From positions 310,001 through 374,000 of the forward strand of contig NZ_MKVA01000008.1 of assembly GCF_001899075.1 (NCBI RefSeq): a stretch of DNA of 64,000 nucleotides, in the 5' to 3' direction. This stretch comes from Devosia sp. 67-54. GTDB lineage: Bacteria; Pseudomonadota; Alphaproteobacteria; Rhizobiales; Devosiaceae. Positions 1 through 23,264 of this stretch are shown here, one piece after another. Within the stretch, counting starts at the first letter, position 1. Each line of letters opens with the position of its first letter. Below the pieces are notes generated by a model that made no database searches, had not been told where the DNA came from, and worked only from the letters and a program-made list of their open reading frames with translations. A program made the position numbers and the translations under genes.

Positions 1-2985
1 GTAGCGGTCCTGCGTCTTGAGGAAATCGAGGAAGACCTTGGGGTACATGAGGTAGGAGGCGAGGCGGAAATCGTCGATCTTCTCGCCGGTCTCCTTGGCC
101 ACCCTGGCCCGCTCCGCCTCGAGGTCGACGTCCTTGAGATAGGAGCCGGGCCGCTCGGTGAGCGGCGTGCGGCCCTTCAGCACCTTCTTCTGCAGGTTTT
201 TGGGGAATCCGCCCGGCGGCTGCCCGAGATCGCCGGCGAAGAACCCGACCACCGAATCCGGGAACGCGATCTCGCGGTTCGGGTCCTCGACGTCGGCGCG
301 CGTCAGCCCGGAGCTGACCATGGCGAGCGCCATGTCGCCCACCACCTTGGAGCTCGGCGTCACCTTGACGATATCGCCAAACATCCGGTTGACGTCGGCA
401 TAGGTCTTGGCCACTTCGTGCCAGCGGCTCTCGAGCCCCAGCGAACGCGCCTGTTCCTTGAGGTTGGTGAACTGCCCGCCCGGCATTTCGTGCAGGTAGA
501 CTTCCGACGCGCCGCCCTTGAGGTCGCTTTCGAAGGCGCGGTACTGCGTGCGCACCGCCTCCCAGTAGAACGAGATTTCGCGGATCACCTTGGCATCGAA
601 TCCGGGATCGCGATCGGTGTCGCGCAGCGCCGCCGCCACCGAGCCGAAAGTCGGCTGGCTGGTGGTGCCCGAGAACGCGTCCATCGCCGCATCCACCGCG
701 TCGACGCCGGCCTCGACCGCCGCCATCAGCGTCGCCGAGGCGGCGCCCGACGTGTCGTGCGTGTGGAGGTGGATCGGCAGCCCGATCTCCTGCTTCAGCG
801 CCGAGATCAGCACCTTGGCGGCCGCCGGCTTCAGCAGCCCCGCCATGTCCTTGATGCCGAGGATGTGCGCGCCTGCCGCCTCCAGCTCCCTGGCCAGTCC
901 GACGTAATATTTGAGGTCGTATTTCGGCCGGCTCGCATCGAACAGGTCGCCGGTGTAGCAGATGGCGCCCTCCGCCACCTTGCCCGCCTCGGCCACCGCG
1001 TCGATCGACACGCGCATGTTTTCGACCCAGTTGAGGCAGTCGAAGATGCGGAACACATCGACGCCGCCCTTCGCCGCCTGGCGCACGAAGAACTTGACCA
1101 CATTGTCGGGATAGTTGGTGTAGCCGACGCCGTTCGATCCGCGCAGCAGCATCTGCGTCAGGATGTTCGGCGCGCCCTCGCGCACCGCCGCCAGCCGCTC
1201 CCACGGATCCTCGTTGAGAAAGCGCATCGCCACGTCGAACGTCGCGCCGCCCCAGCATTCGAGCGAGAACAGATTGGGCAGCCCGCGCGCATAGCTCTCG
1301 GCGATGCGCGTGATGTCGTAGCTGCGCATGCGCGTCGCCAGCAGGCTCTGATGCGCGTCGCGCATCGTGGTGTCGGTGAAGAGCACTGCCTTTTGCGCCT
1401 TCATCCACTCGGCGAGGCCCTTCGGCCCCTGCCGCTCCAGCACCTGCCGCGAGCCGTCGATCAGCGTCACCGGCTCGTAGAGCGGCGGCACCGGCTCGAT
1501 GGCGTCGGCCGGCGGCCGCGGCCGGTCTCGCACTTCCGGATGGCCGTTGACCGTGACGTCGGCGATATAGGTCAACAGCTTGGTCGCCCGGTCCTTGCGG
1601 CGCTCGAACTGGAACAGCTCCGGCGTCGTGTCGATGAACCGCGTGGTGTAGCGGTTGTTGACGAAATCGGGATGCGTGATGATGTTCTCGAGGAAAGCGA
1701 GATTGGTCGCGACGCCGCGGATGCGGAACTCGCGCAGCGCCCGGTGCATGCGGGCGATCGCCTCTTCCGGCGTCGGCGCCCAGCAGGTGACCTTCTCGAG
1801 CAGCGGATCGTAGAACCGCGTGATGATGGCGCCGGCATAGGCCGTGCCCCCGTCGAGCCGCACCCCGAACCCGGTCGCCTCGCGATAGGCGGTGATCCGC
1901 CCGTAATCTGGAATGAAATTCTCTTCCGGATCTTCCGTCGTCACCCGGCACTGGATGGCGTGGTCGCGCAGCTTGATGTCCTGCTGCTTCGGCACGCCCG
2001 ATTCCGGCGTGCCGATCACCGCGCCCTCCATGATGCGGATCTGCGCCTTGACGATGTCGATATCGGTAACGATCTCGGTGACCGTGTGCTCCACCTGGAT
2101 GCGCGGGTTCACTTCGATGAAGTAGAATTTGTCGGTGTCGGCATCGAGCAGGAATTCGACCGTGCCGGCGCAGCGATAATTGGCGCTGCGCCCGAGCCGC
2201 AGCGCCGCCTCGGTCAGGTCGTGGCGTACCGCGTCGCTCAGATACGGTGCCGGCGCCCGCTCCACCACCTTCTGGTTGCGCCGCTGCACCGAGCAGTCAC
2301 GCTCGAACAGATGCACGAGGTTGCCGTGGTCGTCGCCGATGAGCTGCACCTCGACGTGCCGCGCCCGCTCGATCAGCTTTTCGAGATACATCTCGTCCTT
2401 GCCGAACGCCGCCTTGGCCTCGCGCTTGCCCTCGCTCACCTCGGCGACCAGCGATTTCTCGTCCATGATCCGGCGCATGCCGCGCCCGCCGCCGCCCCAG
2501 CTCGCCTTCAGCATCAGCGGATAGCCGATGGCGGCGGCGAGGCGCTTCACCTCCTCCATGTCGTCGGGCAGCGCCTCGGTGGCCGGCACCACCGGCACGC
2601 CGGCGGCGATCGCCATGTTGCGCGCCGCGACCTTGTTGCCGAGGTCGCGCATGGTCTGCGGCTTCGGCCCGATGAAGATGATCCCGGCATCCTCGCAGGC
2701 TTCGGCGAACTCCGGCGATTCCGACAGCAGCCCATAGCCGGGATGGATGGCGTCGGCGCCCGCCGCCCGCGCCACGCGGATATATTCGTCGATCTGCAGG
2801 TACGCCTCGACCGGCCCCTTGCCCTTGCCGATCAGGTACGCCTCGTCGGCCTTGAAGCGGTGCAGCGCCAGCTTGTCCTCTTCGGCGTAGCAGGCAACGG
2901 TCTTGATGTTCAGCTCGTTGGCCGCGCGGAACACGCGGATGGCGATTTCGCTGCGGTTGGCGACGAGGATTTTCTTGATCGGCAT
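1..2985 (-). CDS. pyc: Pyruvate carboxylase, C-terminus cut by window edge
   Basis: Biotin-dependent, anaplerotic carboxylation of pyruvate to oxaloacetate. 995 codons are visible of a family length near 1150. The N-terminal biotin carboxylase/ATP-grasp part starts MPIKKILVANR and carries the Gly-rich ATP loop (GGGGRG) near residue 165. The carboxyltransferase domain follows, with the TDTTMRDAHQS motif near residue 537 that contributes metal-site residues. The last visible residues are in the conserved region before the biotinyl domain, so the biotin-accepting lysine lies outside the window. The ATG at 2985 matches the conserved N-terminus of the family. The terminator of the upstream gene lies between the two, so pyc probably has its own promoter in 2986-3033. 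Confidence 0.97.
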   Translation of the reverse strand, partial: MPIKKILVANRSEIAIRVFRAANELNIKTVACYAEEDKLALHRFKADEAYLIGKGKGPVEAYLQIDEYIRVARAAGADAIHPGYGLLSESPEFAEACEDAGIIFIGPKPQTMRDLGNKVAARNMAIAAGVPVVPATEALPDDMEEVKRLAAAIGYPLMLKASWGGGGRGMRRIMDEKSLVAEVSEGKREAKAAFGKDEMYLEKLIERARHVEVQLIGDDHGNLVHLFERDCSVQRRNQKVVERAPAPYLSDAVRHDLTEAALRLGRSANYRCAGTVEFLLDADTDKFYFIEVNPRIQVEHTVTEIVTDIDIVKAQIRIMEGAVIGTPESGVPKQQDIKLRDHAIQCRVTTEDPEENFIPDYGRITAYREATGFGVRLDGGTAYAGAIITRFYDPLLEKVTCWAPTPEEAIARMHRALREFRIRGVATNLAFLENIITHPDFVNNRYTTRFIDTTPELFQFERRKDRATKLLTYIADVTVNGHPEVRDRPRPPADAIEPVPPLYEPVTLIDGSRQVLERQGPKGLAEWMKAQKAVLFTDTTMRDAHQSLLATRMRSYDITRIAESYARGLPNLFSLECWGGATFDVAMRFLNEDPWERLAAVREGAPNILTQMLLRGSNGVGYTNYPDNVVKFFVRQAAKGGVDVFRIFDCLNWVENMRVSIDAVAEAGKVAEGAICYTGDLFDASRPKYDLKYYVGLARELEAAGAHILGIKDMAGLLKPAAAKVLISALKQEIGLPIHLHTHDTSGAASATLMAAVEAGVDAVDAAMDAFSGTTSQPTFGSVAAALRDTDRDPGFDAKVIREISFYWEAVRTQYRAFESDLKGGASEVYLHEMPGGQFTNLKEQARSLGLESRWHEVAKTYADVNRMFGDIVKVTPSSKVVGDMALAMVSSGLTRADVEDPNREIAFPDSVVGFFAGDLGQPPGGFPKNLQKKVLKGRTPLTERPGSYLKDVDLEAERARVAKETGEKIDDFRLASYLMYPKVFLDFLKTQDRY

Positions 2986-3033
2986 CGATTTAAGGTCCGG
3001 TCACGAGGGGACGAGGGCGTTGCCGCCGGCTCG

Positions 3034-3066
3034 AAAAACAAAGGGCCCCGCATCGACGAGGCCCCG
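3034..3066 (-). terminator. Rho-independent terminator of the DUF442 gene
   Basis: Read on the minus strand, GGCCTCG pairs with CGGGGCC around a 6-nt loop (one G-U pair, one more G-C outside) and is followed by TTTGTTTTT. It sits just after the stop codon of the gene at 3070-3489 and before the pyc start. Confidence 0.8.
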
Positions 3067-3069
3067 GGC

Positions 3070-3489
3070 TTACTGTTTCTGGCTGAGATGGCCCAAGAGG
3101 TGGGACATGTCGTAGCCGGCGCGCGCCGCCGCCGCGACGATCTCCTCTGCCGGCAGCTTTCCGGCCTGCGACAGCGCCCACAAGGTGGTGGAGCGCGTGC
3201 CGGATCGGCAGAATGCCAGGACGGGCCCGGCGCTCCCCTCGAGCGCCGCCTCCGTCTCGACCACCATCTGCGACGACACCCCGTCGCGTCCGAGCGGGAT
3301 GTAGTGGTAGGCGAGCCCGGCCTTTTCGGCCGCCGCCTGCATCGTCGCCGAGGACGGCTGGTCAGGCGATTCCCCGTCCGGCCGGTTGTTGATGACGGCG
3401 GTGAAACCGAGGGCCTTGAGCGCGGGAAAATCCTCCGGGCTGATCTGCGGGGCGACGCTCACGTGCTCGTTGATCCGCTTGACGTCCAA
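3070..3489 (-). CDS. DUF442 / TIGR01244-type phosphatase-like protein
   Basis: 139 residues with the tyrosine-phosphatase-like fold typical of DUF442, the domain fused to the beta-lactamase-like hydrolase Blh in rhizobia and present alone in many alphaproteobacteria. The signature is a Cys-Arg-Ser-Gly-Thr-Arg-Ser loop near residue 95, preceded by a small hydrophobic strand. Cys and Arg are four residues apart, one fewer than in the classic CX5R loop, which is usual for this family. The substrate is unknown; rhizobial relatives have been linked to sulfide and biofilm functions, which cannot be concluded here. The reading frame starts at TTG (3489) with GGAG about 8 nt upstream. A strong terminator follows. 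Confidence 0.85.
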   Translation of the reverse strand: MDVKRINEHVSVAPQISPEDFPALKALGFTAVINNRPDGESPDQPSSATMQAAAEKAGLAYHYIPLGRDGVSSQMVVETEAALEGSAGPVLAFCRSGTRSTTLWALSQAGKLPAEEIVAAAARAGYDMSHLLGHLSQKQ

Positions 3490-3576
3490 TACTCTGCTCC
3501 AACTCGCGCCTTCGGGCTTCCCGGGGGAGGGTTATAGACGCCGGCCGCCGCCGGAGGCAACCGCGGCCTGCTCGGC

Positions 3577-4896: not shown

Positions 4897-6108
4897 ATGA
4901 TCAATGTGAACAAATTCGTCGGTCTCGCGGCCGCTGCTGCCATCCTGGCGGCGACCCCCGCGCTGGCCGCCGACGTCAAGGTCGGTATTCTCGGCGACAT
5001 CACCGGACCGATCGAAGCCCTGGCCGGCCCGATCGTCAAGGCGGCCCAGCAGGCCTTCAGCGACGTCAATGCCCAGGGCGGCATCCTCGACGGCAAGCTG
5101 GTCGTGGTCACCGGCGACAGCGCCTGCGACCCGTCCGTGGCCGGCCCGGCCGCCGACAAGCTCGTCAACACCGACCAGGTCGTCGGCATCGTCGGCGCCT
5201 TCTGCACCGGCGCCACCATCGGCGCCGCGACCGCCGCGGGCATCCCCGGCGGCGTCGTCATGATCTCGCCGTCCGCCACCGCGCCGGCGCTGACCACCCT
5301 CGACGACAAGGACCTCGTCTTCCGCACCGCCCCGTCGGATGCGTTCCAGGGCGTCAAGCTCGCCGACCTGCTCATCCAGAAGGGCATCAAGTCGGTGGCG
5401 CTCACCTATGTGAACAACGACTACGGCAAGGGCCTCGCCGACGTGTTCAAGGCGACCTACACCAAGGAAGGCGGCACCATCTCCGCCGACGTGTCGCATG
5501 AAGACGGCAAGGCCGACTATCGCGCCGAGCTCGGCCAGCTGGCCGCCGGCGGCGACAAGAACCTGGTGATCATCGCCTATGCGTCGGGCTCCGCCCACAC
5601 CATCCTGCAGCAGGCGGTCGAGGCCGGTGACTTCACCACCTATATCGGCGTCGACGGCGTGATCGGCGACGACCTGCTCAAGGGCATCGACCCGGCGGCC
5701 GTCAACGGCCACCTGTTCGCCACCCGCGCCGGCGCTTACACCGGCGACGGCGCTGCGGCCTTCGACAAGAACGAAGCCGCGCTCAAGAACGACAAGGGCC
5801 AGTACGACACCTACGTGCCGCAGGCCTACGACGCCGCCTTCCTGCTCGCCCTCGCGATCGAGAAGAACGGCAAGGCCGACCGCGCCGGCCTGAGCCAGGC
5901 GCTGCGCGACGTCGCCACCGCCCCGGGCGAGAAGATCCTGCCCGGCGAGTGGAAGAAGGCCGTCGAGCTGATCAAGGCCGGCAAGGACATCGACTATGAG
6001 GGCGCCTCGGGCCCGGCCGAGTTCGACAAGGCCGGCGACGTCGACGGCATCATCGTCGAGGTCGACGTGCAGGACGGCAAGTTCGTCGAAGTCGGCCCGG
6101 TCAAGTGA
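4897..6108 (+). CDS. livK: Branched-chain amino acid ABC transporter substrate-binding protein
   Basis: 403 residues. The Sec signal peptide (residues 1-25, ending PALAA) is followed by the ligand-binding receptor fold of the LivJ/LivK family: DVKVGILGDITGP at the mature N-terminus, the two Rossmann-like lobes, and the CDPSVAGPAADKLV segment. It captures Leu/Ile/Val-like ligands in the periplasm for the LivHMGF complex encoded at 6897-10668 on the other strand. The ATG at 4897 has an AGAGGGA ribosome site 7-8 nt upstream; a longer frame from 4744 would put the signal peptide inside the protein. It has its own strong terminator, so it is made separately from the permease, which fits a binding protein needed in excess. 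Confidence 0.93.
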   Translation: MINVNKFVGLAAAAAILAATPALAADVKVGILGDITGPIEALAGPIVKAAQQAFSDVNAQGGILDGKLVVVTGDSACDPSVAGPAADKLVNTDQVVGIVGAFCTGATIGAATAAGIPGGVVMISPSATAPALTTLDDKDLVFRTAPSDAFQGVKLADLLIQKGIKSVALTYVNNDYGKGLADVFKATYTKEGGTISADVSHEDGKADYRAELGQLAAGGDKNLVIIAYASGSAHTILQQAVEAGDFTTYIGVDGVIGDDLLKGIDPAAVNGHLFATRAGAYTGDGAAAFDKNEAALKNDKGQYDTYVPQAYDAAFLLALAIEKNGKADRAGLSQALRDVATAPGEKILPGEWKKAVELIKAGKDIDYEGASGPAEFDKAGDVDGIIVEVDVQDGKFVEVGPVK

Positions 6109-6133
6109 TCGGCTGGCATCGCTGAGTTGACGA

Positions 6134-6159
6134 GGCCCGGGAGCGATCCCGGGCCTTTT
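6134..6159 (+). terminator. Strong rho-independent terminator after livK
   Basis: GGCCCGGG (6134-6141) and CCCGGGCC (6148-6155) form a perfect 8-bp stem with a 6-nt loop, followed by TTTT. It lies 26 nt after the livK stop. Confidence 0.93.
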
Positions 6160-6248
6160 CGTTGCCGCCCGGCAGAAAAATCGCGACCGGCTGTCGAAAG
6201 CCGCTCGGCTCCGTCGATTAGATGCAACACCCATCACGGAGCAGCAGC

Positions 6249-6890
6249 ATGACCCCGACCATCACCGCTTTTGAACGTTCGCCCGATGGCGGCAAGGGCC
6301 TGGCCCGCGACATGCGCGTGCGCTGGGCGCTCGAGGAGGTCGGCCAGCCCTACGAGGTCCGCTACGTGTCCTTTGCGGCGATGAAGCAGCCAGCCCACCG
6401 GGGGCGCAATCCCTTCGGCCAGATCCCGACCTATGAGGACGGTGGCCTGGTGCTGTTCGAAAGCGGCGCCATCATCTTTCACATCGCCGGGCGGCATGCC
6501 GGCCTGCTGCCGGCCGACGCCGATGCCCGGGCGCGCGCCATCGCCTGGATGTTCGCCGCGGTCAGCACCGTGGAGCCGCCGATCCTGGAATTTGCCAGCG
6601 CCTGGCTGTTCGAGAGCCCGCAGAGCTGGGCCGCCGAGCGCATGCCGATGCTCGAGGAGCGCGTGCATGTCCGGCTCCGCGACCTGTCGGCCCGGCTCGG
6701 CGAGGCCGAGTGGCTGGACGGAAACTTCAGCGCCGGCGATCTGATGATGGTGCATGTGCTGCAGCGCCTCGCGCCGTCCGGCATGCTGGCCAAACACCCC
6801 AGCCTTGCCGCCTACGTCGCCCGCGCCGAAGCCCGCCCCGCCTACCGGCGCGCCTTTGCGGCGCAATACGCCGTGAATGCCGCGGCGTGA
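6249..6890 (+). CDS. Glutathione S-transferase family protein
   Basis: 213 residues with the two-domain GST layout: an N-terminal thioredoxin-like half (to about residue 80), including the glutathione-site NPFGQIPTYED and the ESGAI motif that binds the gamma-glutamyl group, and a C-terminal helical half. The class and substrate cannot be told from sequence. GGAG at 6238-6241, 7 nt before the ATG at 6249, decides the start over an in-frame ATG at 6222. It converges on livM with 6 nt between the stops, so transcripts probably overlap. Confidence 0.9.
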   Translation: MTPTITAFERSPDGGKGLARDMRVRWALEEVGQPYEVRYVSFAAMKQPAHRGRNPFGQIPTYEDGGLVLFESGAIIFHIAGRHAGLLPADADARARAIAWMFAAVSTVEPPILEFASAWLFESPQSWAAERMPMLEERVHVRLRDLSARLGEAEWLDGNFSAGDLMMVHVLQRLAPSGMLAKHPSLAAYVARAEARPAYRRAFAAQYAVNAAA

Positions 6891-11589: not shown

Positions 11590-14112
11590 TCAAAATTCTT
11601 CCCAGTCCTTGTCGACCGCGGCGTTGCCGTGCGCCAGGTAGGATTTGGCGGCGGTCCTGACCCGCTCCTGCAGGCCCTTGATGCCGCGCGAGAATGCCGG
11701 CGCCGGGGCCGGCCGGGAGCTGCGCGACGGCGCATCCGGGCTGGCGATGGTGAAGACCTCGACGATGCGGTCGAGCTCGGTCGCCTGCTCCTCGGTGCGC
11801 TCGATGGAGGCATTGGTCTCTTCGACCAGCGCCGCATTGTGCTGGGTCATCTCGTCCATGGTGCGCACTGCGGCGTTGACCTCCTCGATCGAGGCGGCCT
11901 GCTCCTGGCTCTCCCTGGCGATCGAATCCATCAGCCCGTTGGAGGAACGGGCGGCCGCCAGCATCGCCTCGAGCTTGCTCGCCGCTTCGGTGACCAGCTT
12001 GGAGCCGGTCTTGACCTCGGCGCCGGACTGCTCGATCAGCCCCTTCACCTCGCTCGAGGCCTGCGCCGCCGATTGCGCCAGCCGCCGCACTTCCACGGCG
12101 ACGACGGCAAAGCCCTTGCCGGCCTCGCCGGCGCGCGCCGCCTCGACCGAGGCGTTGAGCGCCAGCAAATTGGTCTGGAACGCGATGTCGTCGATCAGCC
12201 CGATGATGTTGGAGATCTTGCCCGACGAGGCGGTGATCCGCTCCATGGCGTCGGTGGCCTTGAGCATGACCTCGCCGCCCTCCTCGGCCGTCCGCGTCAC
12301 CGACGCCGCGACCACGCTCGCATCCTTGGCCCGCTGCGCGTTCTGCAGCACGGTGCTGGCCAGTTGCTCCATCGCCGCCGAGGTTTCCTCGATGGTCGCC
12401 GCCTGCTTGGTGGTGCGCTCGGAAAGGTCGTTGGCGCCCGACAGGATTTCGCTGGTCGCCGTCTTCAGCGTCCGCGAGGTTTCCCGCAACCGCCCGACGA
12501 TCTCGCCGAGCTTTTCGGCCACCGCATTGGTGTCGGCCTTGAGCTGCGCAAAGGCGCCCTGGTAGTCGCCCTCGACGCGGTGCGTGAGGTCGGTATTGGC
12601 CAGCGCCGACAGCACCCGCCCGGTCTCGCCGAGGCCGCGATCCACGGTCTCCACCAGATTGTTGATCGAGGCGGCGATGACGTTGAGCTCGCGGTCGGGA
12701 AACTCGGCCTCGACGCGCTTGGAGAAATCGCCGGCGACGGCGGCGTCGACCACCTGCCCGAAGGCCTGCTGCAGCGCCTGCATCATGGTGGTGCGCTCGA
12801 TACGGCGGCGCTCGGAGGCCGCCCGCTCCTCGTCGGTCATGTTGTTGATCTTGAGCGCGTTCTCGCGGAACACCTCGACCGTGCGCGCCATCTCGCCGAT
12901 TTCGTCGGAACGCGTCGCGCCCTTCACCTCGACATCGAGCTGCCCGTCCGCCAGCGCCTTCATCGTTCCGGTCAGCCGGGTGATGGGCTTGGTCACCGAG
13001 CGCGAGAACAGCAGGCCGCCTGCCGCCGCGACCAGCAGCAGCGCGCCGCCCACCAGCAGCATCCAGTTGCGCATCGACACCACCGGCGCGAACAGCTCGG
13101 CTTCCGACTGCATGGCGACCACGGCCCATTTGGTGCCCTGGAAGGCGAACGGCGCCGCTTTGGCGATCATCGGCTGGCCGCGGAAATCGGCAATGACGCC
13201 GTCGACCGCCTGCCCGGCGATCGCCGCCTTGACGATGTCGCTGCGCACCGGCGTGATCAGCACGTTGGGGTCGCTCGAAAAGCTCGACTGCGTGCGCATC
13301 AGCCCGTCGGCGCCGACGATGATCGCCTCGCCCGACTGGCCGAGGCCGCGGATCGAATGCATCTTGGACGAGATGCCGGTGGCCGAGATCTCGAACATCA
13401 GCACGCCGTCGACGGTCTTGCCCTTGTAGACCGGCGTCGCCATGAAGCTCTCCGGCCGGCCGGCCGGCTCGTAGAAGCTGAAATCGGCGAACGCCACCTC
13501 GCCCTCCTGCAGCCCGGCCGCCTGGCGCAGCAGCGCGCCCACCGGGCCTTCCGACAGCGGGTTGCCGCTGCCCTTGGCGAAACTGGTGGCGAAATCGGCG
13601 TTCTTCTGCACCGAATAGACGAGGATGCCGTCGGCATTGAACAGCAGGACGTCCTCGTAGCCCTTCTGCTCGAGCAGGTTGTGCCAGGTCGGATGGAAGC
13701 GCTTGTGCTGGCTGTCATAGGTGCCGCCGATCGCCCCGACGCCATCGACCTTCGCCCGCTCCCATTGCGGGTTCGGGTTGTTCTTGATGTAGGCCATCTG
13801 CAGCACGTCGGAGCCTTTGCCCTGCACGTCCGCCTCGACATAGGAGCGCGTCATGTTGTCGATCTGCGTCGCCGTATCGCCGCGCGCCGCGAACATCGTG
13901 AGATCGACCGCGATGTCCTTGAAGTAGGAGCCGACCTGGTCCGCCGCCGACTCGACCGACGCATCGAAGCTGCGCGCCCGCTGCTGCTCGACCGTCTGCA
14001 GCCCGATCATGTATGCCGCAGCGCCGATGCCGAGCCCGACCACCAATGCCGAACCGATCAGCGCGAGCGGCAGTTTCTGGGCGATCTGGAACTTCGGCAA
14101 GGTGAGGGACAT
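11590..14112 (-). CDS. Methyl-accepting chemotaxis protein with C-terminal CheR/CheB tether motif
   Basis: 840 residues. TM1 lies at about 12-35, a large periplasmic sensor of Cache type at about 36-345, TM2 at 349-370, followed by HAMP and the methyl-accepting signalling hairpin with the conserved tip ([19 protein letters not shown]). The last residues are K-DWEEF, matching the xWxxF pentapeptide that E. coli Tar/Tsr use to bind CheR and CheB; the segment before it is a flexible Pro/Ser-rich linker. cheR and cheB lie nearby at 14760-16651. The ATG at 14112 places TM1 at the N-terminus; an ATG at 14190 is a possible alternative. The ligand is unknown. Confidence 0.93.
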
Positions 14113-14272
14113 GGGCGGATGCTCCGTTGTCTTGGGGAGCACAGGCAGCCGCCAGCGGGCCCGCCCTGACCTCTCCCCCAATAAGGCCATGGTGAATGCG
14201 GGTGAAACTATAGGCAGCGGCGGATGAACAAGTCCTTACGGGAGCTTGCGTACGAACCGGCGGCGCCGGACG

Positions 14273-14662
14273 TCAGGTGAGCGCGCCGATGACCGCTTCG
14301 ATGCGCTTCTTCATCGTGCCGGCGTCGAACGGCTTGATGATGTAGTTGTTGACGCCGAACGAGATGGCCTCCTTGACCTGCTCCTTGTCGGAGCGGCCGG
14401 TGGCCATGATGAACGGCATGCTGGCGGTCTTGGGGTGCTTGCGGATGACCCGCAGCAGCGTCAGCCCGTCGATGTCCTCCATGTTCCAGTCCGAAATGAT
14501 CAGCTGGACGTTGGACTTTTCGAGCTTGCCCAGGGCATCGCGGCCGCTCTTGGCCTCGATGATGTCCTTGAAGCCCAGTTGCGTCAGGATGTACTTGCAG
14601 ATGCCGCGCATCGACTGCTGGTCATCCACGATCAGAACGCTGACATCACTGGCCTTGGGCAT
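14273..14662 (-). CDS. cheY2: Chemotaxis response regulator, CheY2-type
   Basis: A 129-residue single receiver domain. It has the acidic pair in VLIVDDQ, the phospho-acceptor Asp in IISDWNM near residue 57, the Thr of MATGRS and the Lys of IIKPF. Its ending (IEAVIGALT) and length closely resemble rhizobial CheY2, which binds the flagellar motor, rather than the CheY at 22905-23264. The ATG at 14662 is preceded by an in-frame GTG at 14665; AAGG upstream serves either. It sits between cheB and the mcp with about 95 nt upstream and 160 nt downstream, so it may have its own promoter. The symbol is given by analogy. Confidence 0.88.
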   Translation of the reverse strand: MPKASDVSVLIVDDQQSMRGICKYILTQLGFKDIIEAKSGRDALGKLEKSNVQLIISDWNMEDIDGLTLLRVIRKHPKTASMPFIMATGRSDKEQVKEAISFGVNNYIIKPFDAGTMKKRIEAVIGALT

Positions 14663-14759
14663 CACGCACTACCTTATGGTGCCGGAAAACCGGAAACTCG
14701 ACACTCGCCGCCGACGCTAGGCAAAAAGCGTTACCATTTCTTCAATTGCGACCTTGGCC

Positions 14760-15803
14760 TTATGCCGCAGACTTCAACCTGTTGAGGGCCGCCGCGAGCC
14801 GGCCGGCGATCATGTCGATCGGCGCCTGCTCGGCCACCGCGCCCTCCTCGAAGGCGACGCGCGGCATGCCATAGACCAGCGCCGAGGCCTGCGACTGGCC
14901 CACCGTATAGGCGCCCGCCTCGCGCATCAGCTTGAGGCCCCGCGCCCCGTCGCGGCCCATGCCGGTGAGGATGGCGCCAACCGCCAGCGCGCCCACCGTA
15001 TGGGCGACGGATTCGAACAGCACGTCGACGCTGGGCCGGTGTCCCGAGGTCAGCTCGTCCTGCCCCAGCCGGCATTTGAGCTGGCCGGAACTGCGCTCCA
15101 CCCGCAGATGCCAGTCGCCGCGGGCGACGTACGCCCTGCCGGGCTCGAGCGGCATGCGGTCTTCGGCCTCGACCACCCGCACGTCGCTGAGCTCGTCGAG
15201 GCGGGCGGCAAAGCGCGTGGTGAAGCCGGCCGGCATGTGCTGCGCGATGACGATCGGCGGGCAATCGGCCGGCATGTCGCCCAGCACCACGCGGATCGCC
15301 TCGACGCCGCCGGTGGACGCCCCGATGGCGATCAGCGCCCCGGCGGGCGCCGCCGCGGTGCGCAGCTTGGTGGAGGCGGCCGGCTTCATCGCCTGGGCCC
15401 GCACGTCGGAAGTCGCGGCGGCGCGCACCTTCTCGCGCAGATTGGCGCCGAACGCCTCGAGCCCGCCGGCGAGATCGGTCGAGGGCTTGGCGACGAAGTC
15501 GACGGCGCCGAGCTCCAGCGCCAGCAGCGTTTCGCTCGCGCCCTTGGTGGTGAGGGTCGAGACCATCACCACCGGCAGCGGATGCAGGCGCATCAATTTG
15601 TCGAGGAACGCCAGCCCGTTCATGTTGGGCATTTCGATGTCGAGCGTCACCACGTCCGGATTCAGCGCCTTGATCTTGGCGCGTGCATCGATGGGGTCCT
15701 CGGCGGTGCCGACCACGCTGATGTCGCCGTCGCGTCCGAGCGTCCGGCTCAGCACTTCCCGGATCAGGGCAGAATCGTCGACGATCAGTACCCGAATGCT
15801 CAT
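14760..15803 (-). CDS. cheB: Protein-glutamate methylesterase/glutamine deamidase CheB
   Basis: 347 residues. The N-terminal receiver (1-120) has VDDSA, the phospho-acceptor Asp in VVTLDIEMP and a Lys in FVAKPS. A linker follows, then the C-terminal methylesterase with the catalytic Ser in GASTGG, the His in AQHMPAGF and the Asp in TGMGRDG. It removes methyl groups from receptor glutamates, with activity raised by CheA phosphorylation. The ATG at 15803 overlaps the cheR stop (ATGA). A longer frame reading into cheR is not used. Confidence 0.95.
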   Translation of the reverse strand: MSIRVLIVDDSALIREVLSRTLGRDGDISVVGTAEDPIDARAKIKALNPDVVTLDIEMPNMNGLAFLDKLMRLHPLPVVMVSTLTTKGASETLLALELGAVDFVAKPSTDLAGGLEAFGANLREKVRAAATSDVRAQAMKPAASTKLRTAAAPAGALIAIGASTGGVEAIRVVLGDMPADCPPIVIAQHMPAGFTTRFAARLDELSDVRVVEAEDRMPLEPGRAYVARGDWHLRVERSSGQLKCRLGQDELTSGHRPSVDVLFESVAHTVGALAVGAILTGMGRDGARGLKLMREAGAYTVGQSQASALVYGMPRVAFEEGAVAEQAPIDMIAGRLAAALNRLKSAA

Positions 15804-16651
15804 GCCGCGTCCTTCGCCCGCTCCAGGCGGGACTGGTAGATGGTCTTGCCGACGAGGCGGAATCCTGCGCCGCCGGCCCCCAGATTTTCCGAATGCCCGA
15901 TATAGAGGAAGCCGCCCGGCGCCAGGATGCGGCCCAGCCGGCCGAACATCTCGCCCTGCGTCGCCTTGTCGAAATAGATCGCGACGTTGCGGCAGAAGAT
16001 GGCATCGAACGGCCCCTTCATCGGCCACGCCGCCATCAAGTTCAGCGGCTTGAACGACACCAGCGACGCCACCGGTTGCGGAATCCGCACGCGCCCGTCG
16101 CCGGTACGCTCGAACAGCCGCGCCCGCTCCAGCGACAGGCCGTTGAGCTCGCTGTCGGGATAGACGGCGGTGGCCGCCTTGGCGATGACGTTGGTGTCGA
16201 TGTCGGTGGCGAGGATCTTGAAGTCCCAGCGCCTGAGGTCCGGATGGGCCGCCAGCAGCGACAGCGCGATGGTGTAGGGTTCCTGCCCGGTCGAGCAGCC
16301 CGCCGACCAGATGCGCAGCCGCTTCTGCGATTGCGACAGCCGCGTCTTCATCAGCTCGCCGACATAGCCGACGAGATGCTCGAAATGGTGCTCTTCGCGC
16401 CAGAAGCGCGTGAGATTGGTGGTCAGCGCGTTGACGAAATCCTGCGCGTCGTCGGCGCTCCCCTCGGTCTCGAGGAAGTCGAGATAGGCGTCGAACGACG
16501 GCAATTGCCGCGTGCGCAGGATGCGGCTCAGCCGGGCGATGACCAGCGTGCGCTTGGCGTCCGACAGCGAGATGCCGGCAACGTCGTAGAGCCGCTCGCG
16601 AATGCGCGTGAATTCGCGCTCGCTGAGGGCAAATTCGCTTTGCTCCATCAT
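15800..16651 (-). CDS. cheR: Chemotaxis protein methyltransferase CheR
   Basis: 283 residues. The N-terminal helical CheR_N domain (about 1-75) is followed by the SAM-binding methyltransferase domain with [16 protein letters not shown] near residue 117 and [10 protein letters not shown] near residue 224. It methylates receptor glutamates using S-adenosylmethionine. Two consecutive ATGs (16651, 16648) overlap the stop of the preceding mcp; either makes a coupled start. It is coupled to cheB at its other end, giving an mcp-cheR-cheB unit. Confidence 0.95.
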
Positions 16652-18189
16652 CCCCCGTTCACCGCCCTCTGCTGCCGGCGCGCCGGCAGGGTCAGGGCTC
16701 GCGACGCCTCGTCCTCGAGCGAGGTGATTTGCGTTCCGAGCCGGCTGATTGCCCCGCTGCCCTCGTCGAGGGCGCCGGCGATCATGTCGGTCTCATTGCT
16801 TAGATTCTCTAAATGTCCGGCGAGGCCGCCCAGAATATTCCTGAGCGCCTCGGCCTCCGCCACGCCGGCGCCGGCCTGGCCGCGGCTGGTCCCGACCAGG
16901 CCGCGGATGTCGCGCGCCGTCTTCTGCGTCGATTGCGCCAGCATGCGCACCTCGTCGGCGACGACGGCGAAGCCTGCGCCCTTTTCGCCCGCCCGCGCCG
17001 CCTCGACGGCGGCGTTGAGGGCGAGGAGGTTGGTGCGGAAGCTCACATCCTCGATGGCTGCCACCAGCTTGTCGATCTCGGCCGTGGTGCCGTCGACGCC
17101 GTTGACCGCCTGCGTACTGCGCTCGGCCGCCACCGCCGCCTCGCCGACGATGTCGCGCACCTGCCGCTCCAGCGCCCGCGCCATCCTGGTGTGGTCGCGC
17201 CCGCGCTGCACGGCGTCGCCCGCAACGGCGACGCCGGTGCGCGTGCCCTCGGCGGCCTCGGACATCGACACCACCGCGAGGCGGTATTTGTCGATGGCGT
17301 TGAGCACCGCCTCGCATTTGCGCTCCAGCGCCGCGCGCACCTCGAAATGCTCGTCGCGCTCGTCGGTCAGCGCCGCCACGAGATCGGCGAGGTCGCGCAC
17401 CTGCGGCGCGATGCCGGCATTGGCCCGCCGCATCTCCGGCGTCAGCGGCTCGCCGGCCAGCACGCGGTTCAGCGCCGCCATGCCGAGATCGAGGCTCTCG
17501 AGCCCCTCGCCCAGCGCCCGCAGCGCCGGCGACGCCTGCAGCGCCCTGGCATCGAAGCGGAAGCTCGTCTGCCCGCCGGCAAGCGCCGCGGCGAAGGCGT
17601 CGAGATCGTCGTCGGCGATGTAGGCGCCGGCCGGCACGAACTCGATGACGCTGCGCCCGGCGCCGGCGGCACGGTGGCGGGCGGTGTGGCGGACCCCCGC
17701 CAGATTGACCAGCTCTTCCTCGGCGAAGCCGGCGGCGGCGTAGCCGGGCCCGAGCAGCACGTCGAGCCGCGCCCCCTCGACCGCCCGCGGCTCCAGCGCG
17801 GTGAGGCCGCGGCTCACGCCCACGATCTCGCCATCGGCCCCGGCCACCAGCGCCGGTTGCGACAGCCCCGAGAACGCCGCCTTGAACTGCGTCGCCCGCT
17901 CGAGCCGCCCGGCGAGATTGGCGACGATGGCCTCGACGCTGACCCCGTCGCGCAAATCGCGGCCGCTGGCGGCGCCCACCGCCTGGCCGAGTTGGGCGAG
18001 CTTGCGCTGTACGGTCTTTTCCGCCTGCGCCGCAAACATCAGGCTCGCGCCGATGGCGAGGAGCGCGAACAGGGCGCAGAGACCATAGCCAAGCCAGCCG
18101 GCCCCGAGCAGCGCGACTGCACTCGTCCCGGCGGCGAAGGCCGCGAGCCAGACGAGATCGACGATCAACGCAACCCTGGTGCGGCGCAT
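16648..18189 (-). CDS. Methyl-accepting chemotaxis-type receptor with short N-terminal membrane anchor
   Basis: 513 residues. Two hydrophobic segments at about 8-30 and 34-54 are separated by only a few residues, so there is essentially no periplasmic sensor. A PAS-like region (about 95-200) and a helical linker follow, then an MCP signalling domain with the conserved tip ([19 protein letters not shown]) at about residues 382-400. No clear HAMP and no tether pentapeptide are seen at the C-terminus (it ends RAVNGG). This architecture suggests sensing of an internal signal. It is translationally coupled to cheR. Confidence 0.88.
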
Positions 18190-18304: not shown

Positions 18305-18910
18305 TCAGAACAGCTCGATGTCGTCATTGGCCGGCTGCCGCGGCGCGAACGCCTGCGCCATGCGCCGGCCCACGATCGACAGTTCCTCGCGCGCCACGCT
18401 CGAGGCGGCCACCGAGTCGAGCCGCTTGACGAAGGCCCGCCCCGAATGCGGCTTAAACATCACTCGGCGGGCGAAGCTGCCGCCCACGTCCTCGCTGGCG
18501 ATGACATAGCCTTCATTGCCGAGGAATTCGCGCACGAATTCGATGTTCTTGGCCCCCACATCGGTCAGCGCCGAATTGATCAGCCCGCCGCCGAAGATCT
18601 TGATCTCGAGATTGGCCTTGCGGCCGCTGCCGCGCGTCAGCACCTTGTTGATCAGCTGCTCCATGGCGAAGGCGCCGTAGCGCGCCGAAGCGCCGTAGCG
18701 GTCGCGGGCGCTGCCCGAGGGCTCGGCCAGGAGGAAATGGTTCATGCCGCCGACGCGCGCCTCGATGTCGCGGATGCAGGCGGCGACGCACGAGCCCAGG
18801 ATGGTCGAGAAGGTCAGGTCCGCTTCGCCGCCCACGAGGCAGTCGCCCTGGTGAATCGTGGTCACGACGCCGCGGTCGAACGCGGGTGCGCTGGCGCGGG
18901 CCTGCATCAT
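18305..18910 (-). CDS. cheD: Chemoreceptor glutamine deamidase CheD
   Basis: 201 residues with the CheD fold: the catalytic Cys in TILGSCVAACI and the His of GGMNHFLL, followed by IFGGG. It deamidates receptor glutamines and in other bacteria works with the phosphatase CheC; in rhizobia the partner system includes CheT. The C-terminus ends NDDIELF, a tail also seen in the divergent neighbouring gene (NGDVDLF). Two ATGs (18910, 18907) are possible starts. Transcription is divergent from the cheT-like gene across 162 nt. Confidence 0.93.
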   Translation of the reverse strand: MMQARASAPAFDRGVVTTIHQGDCLVGGEADLTFSTILGSCVAACIRDIEARVGGMNHFLLAEPSGSARDRYGASARYGAFAMEQLINKVLTRGSGRKANLEIKIFGGGLINSALTDVGAKNIEFVREFLGNEGYVIASEDVGGSFARRVMFKPHSGRAFVKRLDSVAASSVAREELSIVGRRMAQAFAPRQPANDDIELF

Positions 18911-19072
18911 GTTTTCTGTGTCGTTCCTGACAAGGTTGTCATCAGGATAGGGGAGGAGTCCTTAGTGAACTTCTAACCAGTTTCGGCAACCATTATTCAT
19001 CGCGTATGCCGGCAATAAGAGCTTTAGACTTGTGCGGGTATATCATGTGAACGTCCAGGGGTTGGCCCTTCC

Positions 19073-19426
19073 ATGTCGCTGCAGAAGCTTGCACGAGAAC
19101 TCGACGAAACCGCGCGCCAGACGGCCGCGATGGTGGATGGCATCACCTACGCCCTCGAGATTCTCGCCGACCCGTCGTTGAGCTGCGAAGCCTCCAAGAA
19201 GGAAGCGGTGGCCATGATCGTCAGCGCCCTGCAGGGCCAGGACCGCATCGAGCAGCGCTGCCAGAACATGGCTCTTGCCGTGCGCCAGTTCGCCCTGCTG
19301 CCGCCGACCGCGCCGGATTCCGACTACGACGAGATCTGGGCCAATCTGGTGCTCGACGAATTGCGCGTGCCGGCGCTGCACGGCGTCGCCGCCACGCCCT
19401 CGAACGGCGACGTCGACCTGTTCTAG
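19073..19426 (+). CDS. CheT-like chemotaxis protein with DxxxQ motif (putative)
   Basis: 117 residues, mainly helical, with no signal or membrane segment. Residues D-R-I-E-Q near position 60 form a DxxxQ motif on a predicted helix, the catalytic signature of CheZ and of rhizobial CheT (a CheY-P phosphatase encoded next to cheD in Sinorhizobium). Its size is close to CheT. The C-terminus ends DVDLF, like the IELF ending of CheD. Position beside cheD supports a chemotaxis role, though here it is divergent rather than downstream. Overall similarity to CheT cannot be measured here, so the function is an inference. Confidence 0.7.
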   Translation: MSLQKLARELDETARQTAAMVDGITYALEILADPSLSCEASKKEAVAMIVSALQGQDRIEQRCQNMALAVRQFALLPPTAPDSDYDEIWANLVLDELRVPALHGVAATPSNGDVDLF

Positions 19427-20059
19427 CCGCAGCGTCAGAATTGTGGGCGAGCGGACACCTCCACCGGCCCGACCGGCGATGTCAAAGAGCAGCGCCGCCT
19501 GTGACATGCGGCATGGCGAGGCTCCGCTCCCGGAGCCGGTAGACGGCGTGTAGTGAGACCGGAGCCTCGCCACGCGACCGGGGTTTGCGACCAGGTCCTG
19601 CCTTCGACCAGCCTCTTGACTGCGGCGCGCAGGGACCGCGTCGAGGTGCGGGGTCTTGCCGAGTTGGCCCCACAGCTCCAAGCCCCTCGGATGGCAACAC
19701 CCTCGGAGCGATCCCCGGACCCTGGGTGCAGGATTGGCTCACCCATGGTTCCCGGCAGAACCGGCCCGGATGGGGTCGACACCCCACCCACACCGGCCTC
19801 CCCCCGCCGACCGTTCGTCGCGACCTCGCAATCGCGAGGGGATGGAGCGGAGAGTACACCCGGGCAGGAGGGTGGTGGATTGGCGGACGGTGGATTTGTT
19901 GCAGGGGATTGTGGGGGAAGGGGAAATCGGCGGTGACGTGGGGGATAGAGGTGTCGGGGGTACTCGGTTTCGCCGTCCTCCACCGGGTGTCATCCCCGCG
20001 CAAGCGGGTGGTGGTTGGGGGGCGACGGTGCAGTCGGGGTCCTTCTTCTGACTAGGGCC
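19427..20059. repeat. Non-coding, repeat-like intergenic region inside the chemotaxis cluster
   Basis: About 630 bp without a convincing gene; the open frames on both strands are low-complexity and overlap each other. It holds several dyads: GGCGAGGCTCC (19515-19525) pairs with GGAGCCTCGCC (19561-19571), with a competing inner hairpin GGCTCC/GGAGCC (19520-19537). There is also a CCTCGC/GCGAGG hairpin near 19834 and a GTCATCCCCGCGCAAGCGGG-type sequence near 19988, which resembles dispersed alphaproteobacterial intergenic repeats. The motif GCAGTCGGG-GTCCTTC near 20030 recurs at 31850. Composition is less codon-structured than the flanks. Confidence 0.6.
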
Positions 20060-20089
20060 ACAAAAGCCAAGGGCGCCTCGCGGCGCCCT
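20060..20089 (-). terminator. Rho-independent terminator after cheW
   Basis: On the minus strand AGGGCGCC and GGCGCCCT make a perfect 8-bp stem with a 4-nt loop, followed by TGGCTTTT. It lies 25 nt after the cheW stop and ends the cheS-Y-A-W transcript. Confidence 0.88.
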
Positions 20090-20114
20090 CGATGCGATTT
20101 ACTGATTCATTGTT

Positions 20115-20603
20115 CTAGCTATCGACTTTGGCGCCGGAGACGACGGCGTGCAGGTCGATGAGGCCAACCATGCGGCTGTCGTGGGTGACGATGCCGTTGA
20201 GGAGCTCGGTGTCCATCGAATTGCCTTCCGGCACGTTGTGGATCTCGTCCTTGCTGACGGTGAGGATGTCGCTGACGGCGTCGACCAGGATGCCGACCCA
20301 TTTGTCGCCGACCGACATCACCACCACCACGTGGTTCTTGGTGGGCGAGGTCTGGCCCTCGCCGAAGCGGGCGCGCAGATCGAAGATCGGCACGATGGTG
20401 CCGCGCAGATTGATCACGCCGCGCACATATTCGCGCGTGTTGGGCAGCGGCGTCGCGCCGTTCCAGGCGCGGATCTCGCGCACCGTGGTGATCTCGACGC
20501 CATAGGTCTGCTCGCCGATCGAAAACGCGATGAGCTGCAGTGAATTCTGCGCATTGACCTGCGCGCCGGTGCCGTAATCGTCCTTGAGGGCGAGGCTTTC
20601 CAT
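20115..20603 (-). CDS. cheW: Chemotaxis coupling protein CheW
   Basis: 162 residues, a single CheW domain covering about 20-155. Conserved features are FSIGEQTYGVEI, the VREI and LPNTREYVRGVINLRGTIVP region (the receptor- and CheA-binding face) and ILVDAVSDIL. It couples the receptors to CheA. The gene is 24 nt after cheA and is followed by a strong terminator. Confidence 0.95.
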   Translation of the reverse strand: MESLALKDDYGTGAQVNAQNSLQLIAFSIGEQTYGVEITTVREIRAWNGATPLPNTREYVRGVINLRGTIVPIFDLRARFGEGQTSPTKNHVVVVMSVGDKWVGILVDAVSDILTVSKDEIHNVPEGNSMDTELLNGIVTHDSRMVGLIDLHAVVSGAKVDS

Positions 20604-20627: not shown

Positions 20628-22868
20628 CTAGGCGGCGTTCTTGTGCAGGCTGTTGCTCGCCTTGAGCCCCTGCACGTCCACGATGAGAGCGACGTTGCCG
20701 TCGCCCAGAATGGTGCCGCCGGCGATGCCGTCGATCGACTCGAAGTTTTCCTCGAGGCTTTTGATCACCACCTGCTGCTGGCCGATGATGTCGTCGACGA
20801 CGAGCGCGATCTTGACGCCGCCCTCGGCCTCGCACAGCACCACGAAGCGGTTGGCGAGCTCGGCATCGCCGCGCAGCTGGAAGCGCTCGGAGAGGTCGAC
20901 CACCTGCACGTATTCGCCGCGCACCCGCAGCACCTTGGCGCCGGACGGCGCGCGGCCGAAATCGGCGCGCGAGCACTGGATGGTCTCGACGATCGAGCTC
21001 AGCGGAATGACGTAGGGGCTGGGGCCGACCTTGACCAGCATGACGTCGAGCACCGCCAGCGTCAGCGGCAGCCGGAGCGTCATGCGCGTGCCCTGCCCGC
21101 TGCGGCTCTTGACGTGCACCGAGCCGCCGATCTTCTTGATGTTGGACAGCACCACGTCCATGCCGACGCCGCGCCCGGAGATGTCGCTGACCGCCTCGGC
21201 GGTGGAAAAGCCCGGCGCGAAGATGAGCTGGTCGATCTGCTCGTCGGTCGGAGTCGTGTCGGCGGCGACGATGCCCTTGTCGCACGCCACCTGCAGCACG
21301 CGCTCGCGGTTGATGCCGCCGCCATCGTCCTCGACGGCGATCAGGATGTTGCCGCCCGCCTGCTCGGCCGACAGCCGGATGGTGCCGATCTCGGGCTTGC
21401 CCAGGCGCAGCCGCTTGTCCGGCGCCTCGATACCGTGGTCGGCGGAATTGCGGATCATGTGCGTCAGCGGATCGGACAATTGCTCGATCACGGTCTTGTC
21501 GATCTCGGTGGCTTCGCCGATGGTCTCGAGCTTGATCTTCTTGCCGGTCCTGGTGGCGAGCTCGCGCACCAGCCGCGGCATGCGCGAGAACACCGATTTG
21601 ACCGGCTGCGCCCGGATGGCCATTACCGCGTCCTGCAGGCCGCGCGTGGTCTGCGCCAGCACTTCGAGGCCGCGCACCAGCTCCTGGTAGCGGGCCCTCA
21701 GCGTATCGTCCATCTGCTGGCTGAGCATCGACTGGGTGATCACCAGCTCGCCCACCATGTTGACGACGCGGTCGACCTTGTCGAGGTCGACGCGGATCGA
21801 CTGCACGCCGGCATTGCGGCGCTCCTCGGGGCCGGCGCGGCGCTCCTCGTGCTCGTCGGCGATGGCCGCCGGTTCGGCCTCGACCAGCTTGATTGCCGGC
21901 GCGGGGGCGGGCGCCGGGGCGGCGGGGCGCGCCGGCATCTCCTGTTTCACCGTCTCGGCCAGCTCGGCGAAGCTGAGCGCCGGCGAATCCGGGGGGGCAG
22001 CCGGCGCCACGAGTTGCGCCAGCTCCGCCAGCGACGGCTCGGGCGCCGGCGCGGCGCGGCTGGGCAGTTGCGCGATCGAGAGCTCGCAATTGCCCTCGAC
22101 GAATTCGAACACTTCGGCGATCGCCTCGGCGCTCGCCGTCGGCGACACCAGCGTCAGCTCCCAGGTGCAGTAGATACCGAACGGCTCGAAATCGGCGAGC
22201 GGCGGGATGTCGGTGAGCCTCGCGACCACGGTCAGCTCGCCGAAATTGGCGAGCTCGCGGAACAGCAGCAGCGGATCGTTGGCGCGCGCATAGAGCTCGC
22301 TGTGCGGCGCGAAGCGGATCTCCCAATGGCCCTTTTCGACCGTCAGCGGCGCCGAAGCGAAGCTGTCCTCGGCGGGCTCGGGCGCGGCCGGAGCGGCGGC
22401 GCCGAGATCGACCATCACCGGCACGAAGTCGATGTCGAAATCTTCCATCGGCGCCTCGGCGTCGGCCTCCCCGCCGGGGGCGTTGCCGCTGGTCAGCGCG
22501 TCGAACTGGTGCCGTTCGACGTCGCCATAGGCCGGCCCGAGGCTGGCCCCGGTCTTGGCGGCGTTGACGAAGTCGGCGACGATGTCGTTGGCCCGGATGC
22601 ACAGCGTCGTCACCGGCCCGCTGAGCTCGATGCGGCCGTCGCGCACATGGTCGAGCAGCGTCTCGTAGGCATGCGCGAAGGCCACCAGCTCGGCAAAGCC
22701 GAAGGCGCCGCCGCCGCCCTTGATCGAGTGGATGGCGCGGAACACCGCGTTCAGCCGGTCGGGCGTGCGCTCGCCCGCCTCGATGGCGGCGAACTGCTCC
22801 TCGAGCTCGGTCAAAAGCTCGGAGCATTCGTCGAAATAGGTGGCCTTGAAGTCGTCGAGATCGCTCAT
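20628..22868 (-). CDS. cheA: Chemotaxis histidine kinase CheA
   Basis: 746 residues. The HPt domain (1-105) has the phosphorylated His47 in RAIHSIKGG. A Pro/Ala-rich region and a P2-like segment (about 170-300) follow, then the P3 dimerisation helices (about 365-425), the ATPase domain with its N box (RNSADHGIE), G1 (DDGGGI) and G2 (GRGVGMDVV), and the C-terminal CheW-like P5 (about 605-740). It autophosphorylates in response to receptors and passes phosphate to CheY1, CheY2 and CheB. It lies between cheY1 and cheW in one operon. Confidence 0.96.
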   Translation of the reverse strand: MSDLDDFKATYFDECSELLTELEEQFAAIEAGERTPDRLNAVFRAIHSIKGGGGAFGFAELVAFAHAYETLLDHVRDGRIELSGPVTTLCIRANDIVADFVNAAKTGASLGPAYGDVERHQFDALTSGNAPGGEADAEAPMEDFDIDFVPVMVDLGAAAPAAPEPAEDSFASAPLTVEKGHWEIRFAPHSELYARANDPLLLFRELANFGELTVVARLTDIPPLADFEPFGIYCTWELTLVSPTASAEAIAEVFEFVEGNCELSIAQLPSRAAPAPEPSLAELAQLVAPAAPPDSPALSFAELAETVKQEMPARPAAPAPAPAPAIKLVEAEPAAIADEHEERRAGPEERRNAGVQSIRVDLDKVDRVVNMVGELVITQSMLSQQMDDTLRARYQELVRGLEVLAQTTRGLQDAVMAIRAQPVKSVFSRMPRLVRELATRTGKKIKLETIGEATEIDKTVIEQLSDPLTHMIRNSADHGIEAPDKRLRLGKPEIGTIRLSAEQAGGNILIAVEDDGGGINRERVLQVACDKGIVAADTTPTDEQIDQLIFAPGFSTAEAVSDISGRGVGMDVVLSNIKKIGGSVHVKSRSGQGTRMTLRLPLTLAVLDVMLVKVGPSPYVIPLSSIVETIQCSRADFGRAPSGAKVLRVRGEYVQVVDLSERFQLRGDAELANRFVVLCEAEGGVKIALVVDDIIGQQQVVIKSLEENFESIDGIAGGTILGDGNVALIVDVQGLKASNSLHKNAA

Positions 22869-22904: not shown

Positions 22905-23264
22905 TCAGTGCACCACGCGGTGGATCACCGAGATCAGCTTCTCGGGATCGAAGGGTTTCACGATCCAGCCGGTGCCGCCCGCGGCGCGGCCCTGGTCGCG
23001 CTTGTCCTGGCTGGTCTCGGTGGTGAGGATCAGGATGGGCAGCGAATTGTGCTCGCCCGACGCGCGCACCCGCTTGATGAACTCGATGCCGTCCATCACC
23101 GGCATGTTGATGTCGGTGATCACCACGTCGACATCTTCCGTCGCCAGCACGTCGAGACCCTTCTGGCCGTCCTCGGCCTGCAGCACCTCGAACCCGGCAT
23201 TGCTCAGGGTGTGGTGCAGCATCGCGAGGATCGTGCGGGAATCGTCAACCGTCAGCACGCGCAT
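22905..23264 (-). CDS. cheY1: Chemotaxis response regulator, CheY1-type
   Basis: A 119-residue receiver domain with VDDSRT, the phospho-acceptor Asp in VITDINMP (about residue 51), Thr in ILTTE and Lys in VKPFD. Its place directly after cheS and before cheA matches rhizobial CheY1, which acts as a phosphate sink for CheA rather than as the main motor ligand. The role is assigned from gene order and is an inference. The start lies 6 nt after the cheS stop. Confidence 0.92.
   Translation of the reverse strand: MRVLTVDDSRTILAMLHHTLSNAGFEVLQAEDGQKGLDVLATEDVDVVITDINMPVMDGIEFIKRVRASGEHNSLPILILTTETSQDKRDQGRAAGGTGWIVKPFDPEKLISVIHRVVH

Follow-up and report, generated by a model that had tools for sequence, protein, structure and literature searches.

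A CheT-like gene divergent from cheD

The window (the whole stretch of 64,000 nucleotides that we analysed) contains a small gene for a CheT-like protein of 117 residues (19,073-19,426, forward strand; recognised from its open reading frame, alignment and AlphaFold2 model), which is divergent from cheD (18,305-18,910, reverse strand; PF03975, E 1.4e-24), the gene for a chemoreceptor glutamine deamidase of 201 residues. The divergent starts of the two genes are 162 bp apart (intergenic region 18,911-19,072). The CheT-like protein has a DxxxQ motif of the CheZ/CheT type (D57-R-I-E-Q61, codons at 19,241-19,255, forward strand; context ALQGQDRIEQR), and the first-pass annotation, which had described a DxxxQ protein of this length at this place, was confirmed in its coordinates, length and motif. 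According to the window translations the protein ends in SNGDVDLF, of which we refer to the last five residues (DVDLF; 19,409-19,423, forward strand) as the tail; CheD ends in NDDIELF, and its tail (DIELF; 18,308-18,322, reverse strand) is part of an extension that does not belong to the CheD fold. When all 318 closed frames in the window that reach 90 residues are screened with the strict C-terminal pattern [IVLAMFCP][DETQ][LF]F, these two proteins alone have the tail.

On the reverse strand the gene order is STAS-like gene, cheY, cheA, cheW, cheD, MCP-like gene, cheR, cheB, a second cheY and an MCP gene; the STAS-like gene, cheW, cheR and cheB are presumptive names, which we gave from the sequences of the genes. 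Both CheY proteins are candidate targets of the CheT-like protein: one is encoded upstream of cheA (22,905-23,264; PF00072, E 2.2e-27, and gene order), the other further along the cluster (14,273-14,665; PF00072, E 2.6e-28). We recognised cheA (20,628-22,868) from its reading frame and tblastn matches to annotated CheA, and cheW (20,115-20,603) and cheR (15,800-16,651) from their reading frames. The MCP-like gene (16,648-18,189; PF00015), which sits between cheD and cheR, encodes a protein of 513 residues whose C-terminus has neither a pentapeptide nor the tail, whereas the MCP at 11,590-14,190 was found in our survey of the MCPs of this genome to end in DWEEF, a CheR-type pentapeptide that contrasts with the tail. 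The CheT-like gene and cheW have convergent ends about 690 bp apart (19,427-20,114), with no clear gene between them.

The AlphaFold2 model of the CheT-like protein (25-row alignment, mean pLDDT 80) has helices at residues 3-31, 38-74, and 82-90. Prediction of the protein alone, which the first-pass annotation had proposed as a check, places the DxxxQ motif (residues 57-61) within the second helix, and residues 102-117, with the tail, are predicted to be disordered (pLDDT <50). As modelled, the monomer consists of a hairpin of two helices and a third, short helix; CheZ is characterised by a four-helix bundle made of two hairpins. In the CheD model (39 rows, pLDDT 89) an ordered core is followed by a flexible coil at residues 189-201 (pLDDT ~60), and F201 is invariant in all 39 aligned CheDs, the rows having been picked for having the tail. 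A Foldseek search with the CheT-like model returned nothing at E ≤0.001, its best rows being unspecific helical matches; VIA-align against the PDB also gave unspecific helical matches, and the absence of a CheZ chain from the rows shown excludes nothing.

Conservation and relation to CheT

Our search of 61 genomes, our own among them, found CheT-like proteins in 33, all 33 belonging to the same family as the window (37 genomes); the same search gave no CheT-like match in the 24 genomes of other families in the order. An alignment of 25 proteins from these 33 genomes (the window protein and 24 relatives) has D57 and Q61 invariant in all 25, and L53, Q54, Q56, R58, I59, R62, and F117 are likewise among the invariant residues. 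The first-pass annotation had made loss of the DxxxQ residues from orthologues, or of the tails from relatives, the grounds for rejecting its reading; the DxxxQ residues are kept throughout, and the strict tail is present on 28 of 30 CheT-like proteins (own genome plus 29 relatives) and a tail on CheD at all 30 loci. The two CheT-like exceptions are a frame extending 10 residues beyond AELF (L007) and a frame broken by a frameshift (L021), either of which may be an assembly error or a genuine change. At all 30 loci cheD lies beside the CheT-like gene on the opposite strand (recognised by the CheD motif in 29, and by the ending DDDIELF in L023), and the CheDs end in [DE][IV]ELF or alike in 29 cases and in EIEMF in the other (L015). 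At three loci from two genera (L027-L029), the CheT-like protein and CheD share identical last six residues, DDIELF.

In other alphaproteobacteria a small gene with a Q..D...Q motif and a similar end adjoins cheD, mostly downstream and on the same strand; for example, the encoded proteins end in SGDFELL (L049), DECEFF (L057), or GDFDFF (L076), and among the matches listed (80 of 262 loci), the carriers of GDFDFF-type ends are Rhizobium leguminosarum and other Rhizobiaceae. When our 25-row set was compared by hhalign with 17 CheT-type proteins from beside cheD, the score was 95% over 104 columns and fell to 83% when the last 8 columns were cut off, and none of 40 column-shuffled decoys exceeded 1.4%; CheTs outside our family were chosen for cheD adjacency, a Q..D...Q motif and, in most cases, the tail, which makes the counts of motif and tail among them partly a result of the selection; the decoy and no-tail runs address this in part. 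Two further CheT-looking proteins (L123 and L130) were excluded from the 17-protein set since our search pattern missed both. The comparison with Rhizobiaceae CheTs alone failed (0.36%), and the window protein was not matched by the NCBIfam CheT model NF047973 (cut-off 200 bits), nor by any other NCBIfam model at E up to 10. The Rhizobiaceae protein L076, a member of the 17-protein set that served as positive control, scored 214 bits against NF047973, and L049 scored weakly (35 bits, E 9e-9). Judged by its sequence, the window protein is a remote homologue of CheT, in a new subfamily outside the curated family, because it matches the mixed set at 95% with low decoys, fails against Rhizobiaceae CheTs alone and lacks a match to NF047973. 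The link to Rhizobiaceae CheT runs through intermediate families, and the earlier reading of the protein as CheT-like holds, one member of the very set that it matches passing the NCBI model.

Like the CheTs of the Rhizobiaceae (S. meliloti; A. fabrum Atu0522; the NF047973 family), the window protein is small, has a DxxxQ motif, ends in acidic and aromatic residues (GDFDFF in the Rhizobiaceae proteins that we read), and is encoded next to cheD; but the Rhizobiaceae gene is downstream of cheD whereas the window gene is divergent from it, and the motif reads QGIDLAVQ there and QDRIEQR here. The target of S. meliloti CheT is reportedly CheY1, and binding constants have reportedly been measured. 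A tblastn search of plasmids with a rhizobial-type CheT found nothing. The protein also resembles CheZ in its layout, in which a long helix with DxxxQ and a Q before it is followed by a linker and an acidic-hydrophobic C-terminal peptide (for the CheZ architecture, see the accessible part of PMC7750401), but the end peptide of CheZ is FliM-like and the window tail is not. It has no match to the CheZ family PF04344, which has none in our genome either, and the profile comparison with CheZ gave 1.4%; CheX (PF13690) with ExxN also had no match in the genome. A Pfam match to ParB (E 0.16, below the cut-off) and sequence matches in the PDB (E 0.4 or worse) were taken as chance.

The protein would act as CheZ does: its predicted helical hairpin would bring D57 and Q61 up to the phosphorylated aspartate of CheY and speed dephosphorylation of CheY~P, in a genome where we found no CheZ. 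S. meliloti CheT, which has a DXXXQ motif, speeds the dephosphorylation of one of the two CheYs only, according to the accessible part of PMC12654446. That report, and the fact that D57 and Q61 never vary in our alignment and sit in CheZ-like surroundings (QD...QR), make it quite unlikely that the window protein is no phosphatase and its DxxxQ is structural, with the protein serving as an adaptor, e.g. an analogue of CheC that regulates CheD; such a role would suit a gene found beside cheD at 30 of 30 loci, and contact between CheC and CheD in Bacillus is described as outweighing either enzyme activity (accessible part of PMC3513319).

The tail on CheD and on other DxxxQ proteins

Our search of the phylum covered 397 genomes and found CheD in 157. 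We sampled 138 loci (30 and 18 from the search of the order, the 30 best-scoring from the search of the phylum, and 60 picked for family spread) and, with three duplicate loci omitted, counted tails on 134 distinct CheDs: 107 have the tail (hydrophobic-[DETQHS]-[LF]-F, with at most 2 residues after it) and 27 do not. CheDs read without the tail include those of one family (L085, L089, L102, and L169). Counting frames with identical last 40 residues once, the strict tail is found on 39 of 41 CheTs of our own type, 58 of 70 other CheTs (here partly by construction, as noted above), 140 of 195 CheDs and 26 of 55 McpA-like proteins, against 5 of 6,079 other frames (distinct, closed and no shorter than 100 residues) in the loci collected; two of these five are CheX-like and a third is a piece of a receiver-domain protein encoded close to cheD. 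The shared acidic-hydrophobic ends of the CheT-like protein and CheD, to which the first-pass annotation drew attention, are therefore real. In locus L346 a receiver-domain protein (5,653-6,843) ends in DDDVELF, near a CheD ending in AVELFS. In the text that our searches of the open-access literature brought up, no paper links the tails of CheD, CheT, and McpA.

The tail had been likened to the CheY-binding peptides of FliM and CheZ, a likeness that is real only in a loose sense (IDALL/F against IELF, which is one residue shorter), because the 24 alphaproteobacterial CheZs that we read all end in a peptide of another, FliM-like kind and none has the strict tail; a docking pattern like Q-x-x-[IV]-D-x-[LI]-[LFI], as in FliM and CheZ, is absent from DVDLF and DIELF of the window.

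With the CheR receptor pentapeptide (x-[HFYW]-x2-[HFYW]) the tail has in common its C-terminal position, its acidity and its final F, but position 2 of the last five residues is V/I in the tail, and in neither DVDLF nor DIELF is it aromatic. The tail could be a variant of this pentapeptide that docks CheT and CheD on the CheR beta-subdomain (or on CheB), where they would compete with receptors or mimic them. S. meliloti CheT and CheR are reported to form a complex (accessible part of PMC12654446), five of the seven MCP-signal proteins of our genome end in DWEEF, DWSEF, or DWTEF, and D1, E3, and F5 are common to DWEEF and DIELF. This reading, which we favoured at first, was demoted because of the residue statistics and a published result on McpA, and we now think it improbable: position 2 of the 107 tailed CheDs is V in 51, I in 45, L in 10, and F in 1, and never W, and the C-terminus of P. 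aeruginosa McpA, which has V there, is reported to bind no CheR out of four (PMC7184735, accessible part, citing Garcia-Fontana 2014). Two genomes (G143 and G240) moreover have tailed proteins, and a W-type pentapeptide on none of the MCP-signal matches listed (6 and 7, respectively, each of which we read).

A class-wide search with the 25-row CheT-like profile gave matches in 3 of 385 genomes beyond our own, all of them MCP-like and none a further CheT. The three proteins have the motif QFQDxxxQ and the tails NIELF, DIELF, and NIDLF, and two are encoded directly before cheY and cheA; Q-F-Q-D...Q and the last F are common to six such MCP-like proteins. A profile of these McpA-like proteins, in a wider search, matched 56 of 299 genomes, and all 30 of its loci that we read have DxxxQ in the context Q-x-x-D...Q (Q[FI][QEH]D in 22, QFYD in 3, and Q[FV]DD in 5). 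Since the profile included the tail, we counted apart the 21 loci in which the match ends before it: the strict tail is present in 16 of these, and a tail in 20 if S, I, and M are allowed, L376 having none. McpA-like frames with both QFQDxxxQ and the tail are seen, for example, at L347 (8,296-9,534) and L348 (8,323-9,537), at L353, L354, and L356, and at others. McpA-like proteins carry the receptor signalling domain PF00015 and, from these sequence features, may be receptor-embedded CheY phosphatases.

Five loci (L359, L360, L365, L371, and L375) have small frames of 163-260 residues with DxxxQ and the tail and without a recognised receptor hairpin; they come from other families and end in IELF, IDLF, or VDLF, and the three that were scanned (L359, L360, and L371) gave nothing above the Pfam or NCBIfam cut-off. 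Five further loci (L363, L372, L373, L374, and L377) have frames of 574-665 residues with a QFDDITSQRLEHV-like DxxxQ in mid-protein and an FELF or FEMF end; QFDDITSQ-like motifs occur in all five, and L363 matched no Pfam family above the cut-off.

The MCP-like loci with DxxxQ look like those of the McpA-like receptors of F7 systems (PA0180/CttP and VCA1088 type), an assignment that rests on gene order and on the C-terminus described in PMC7184735. The likeness to the window protein lies in the CheZ-like QFQDxxxQ and the tail (NIELF or DITFF); the difference is that the F7 protein is fused to an MCP signalling domain whereas the CheT-like protein is free. Plasmids provide examples in Pseudomonas sp. 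HR96 (NDITFF) and Aeromonas sp. BC14 (ADVTFF), directly before genes for a response regulator, a STAS protein and CheA. The McpA-like C-terminus has been described as highly conserved, without the pentapeptide in all sequences analysed, and important yet of unclear role, and the accessible part of this 2020 source (PMC7184735) makes no mention that we found of a CheD tail or of DxxxQ in McpA.

At the loci that we looked at, genes for a STAS protein, a CheY-like protein and CheA adjoin the tailed McpA-like genes, and therefore any of these could be the partner of the tail. It is, in our estimate, unlikely that the tail addresses CheT and CheD not to CheY but to another shared component (CheA, CheW, the STAS protein or CheD itself): McpA-like proteins already have the signalling domain PF00015 and would hardly need a second tether to the array, and the CheD tail is itself predicted to be a flexible coil.

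We noted 11 genomes (not a full list) with both a CheD locus and a locus for a DxxxQ protein with the tail. CheD is tailed in ten, and eight of these ten pairs agree at position 4 (six LF/LF and two of the rare FF/FF, in G896 and G994), while two disagree (G843 and G888). Two McpA-like proteins, those of G883 and of the HR96 plasmid, have the tail where the CheD that we read does not.

CheC and CheX have a fold different from that of the CheT-like protein, and an ExxN active site. They resemble it in being CheY~P phosphatases; CheC is the partner of CheD in Bacillus, and three CheX-like proteins have the tail. Two of the three are in genome G710, with 181 residues (CheX 16.6 bits, below the cut-off of 27) and 318 residues (44.4 bits, above it). 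These two frames, at L327 (1,186-1,731 and 1,759-2,715), have ExxN motifs and end in GELELF and GELEFF, and at L414 (G848) a CheX-like frame of 287 residues with ExxN motifs (2,641-3,501), cut by the edge of the locus, ends in GEMEMF. None of the 30 top-scoring CheX loci has the tail. Of four weaker CheX loci, L414 is the one just described, L409 is without the tail, and in L412 and L413 the CheX frame was not identifiable.

A candidate docking motif for CheY

We are evenly balanced between belief and doubt that the partner of the tail is CheY. CheY is favoured by the range of proteins that have the tail, which takes in DxxxQ proteins built in several ways and three CheX-like ExxN proteins: if unrelated CheY phosphatases have the tail, what they share would be CheY. 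Against this, the tail is absent from the 30 top CheX loci, and the CheZs of the same class carry another CheY peptide.

From the DxxxQ motif, the tail, and the conservation and recurrence of both, which we observed directly, we infer, with slightly more doubt than confidence, that the window protein is a CheT-like CheY~P phosphatase with a docking tail for a partner that it shares with CheD, most likely CheY. The disordered tail, [DE]-hydrophobic-[DE]-L-F, would be a short docking motif common to the CheT-like protein and CheD, and the same motif would recur on other DxxxQ proteins, above all on McpA-like chemoreceptor-like proteins; its recurrence on CheD and on DxxxQ proteins therefore suggests a partner common to CheD and CheY phosphatases. 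Docking on CheY would hold the phosphatase close to its substrate and make CheD dependent on the level of CheY~P, a link that CheC provides for CheD in Bacillus.

The wider reading, that [DE]-hydrophobic-[DE]-[LF]-F is one proteobacterial docking motif that brings CheD and several kinds of CheY~P phosphatase (CheT, other free DxxxQ proteins, McpA-embedded DxxxQ and some CheX-like proteins) onto the same CheY, is one that we hold tentatively and with considerable doubt. If true, CttP and the other McpA-like "receptors" would be CheY phosphatases bound to the array, and sensing would be at most a part of what they do. The tail shared with CheD and CheT, together with DxxxQ in McpA-like proteins, suggests a testable role for the McpA C-terminus, as a common dock for enzymes of adaptation and of signal termination, and the tail could give CheD a link to CheY~P in bacteria without CheC.
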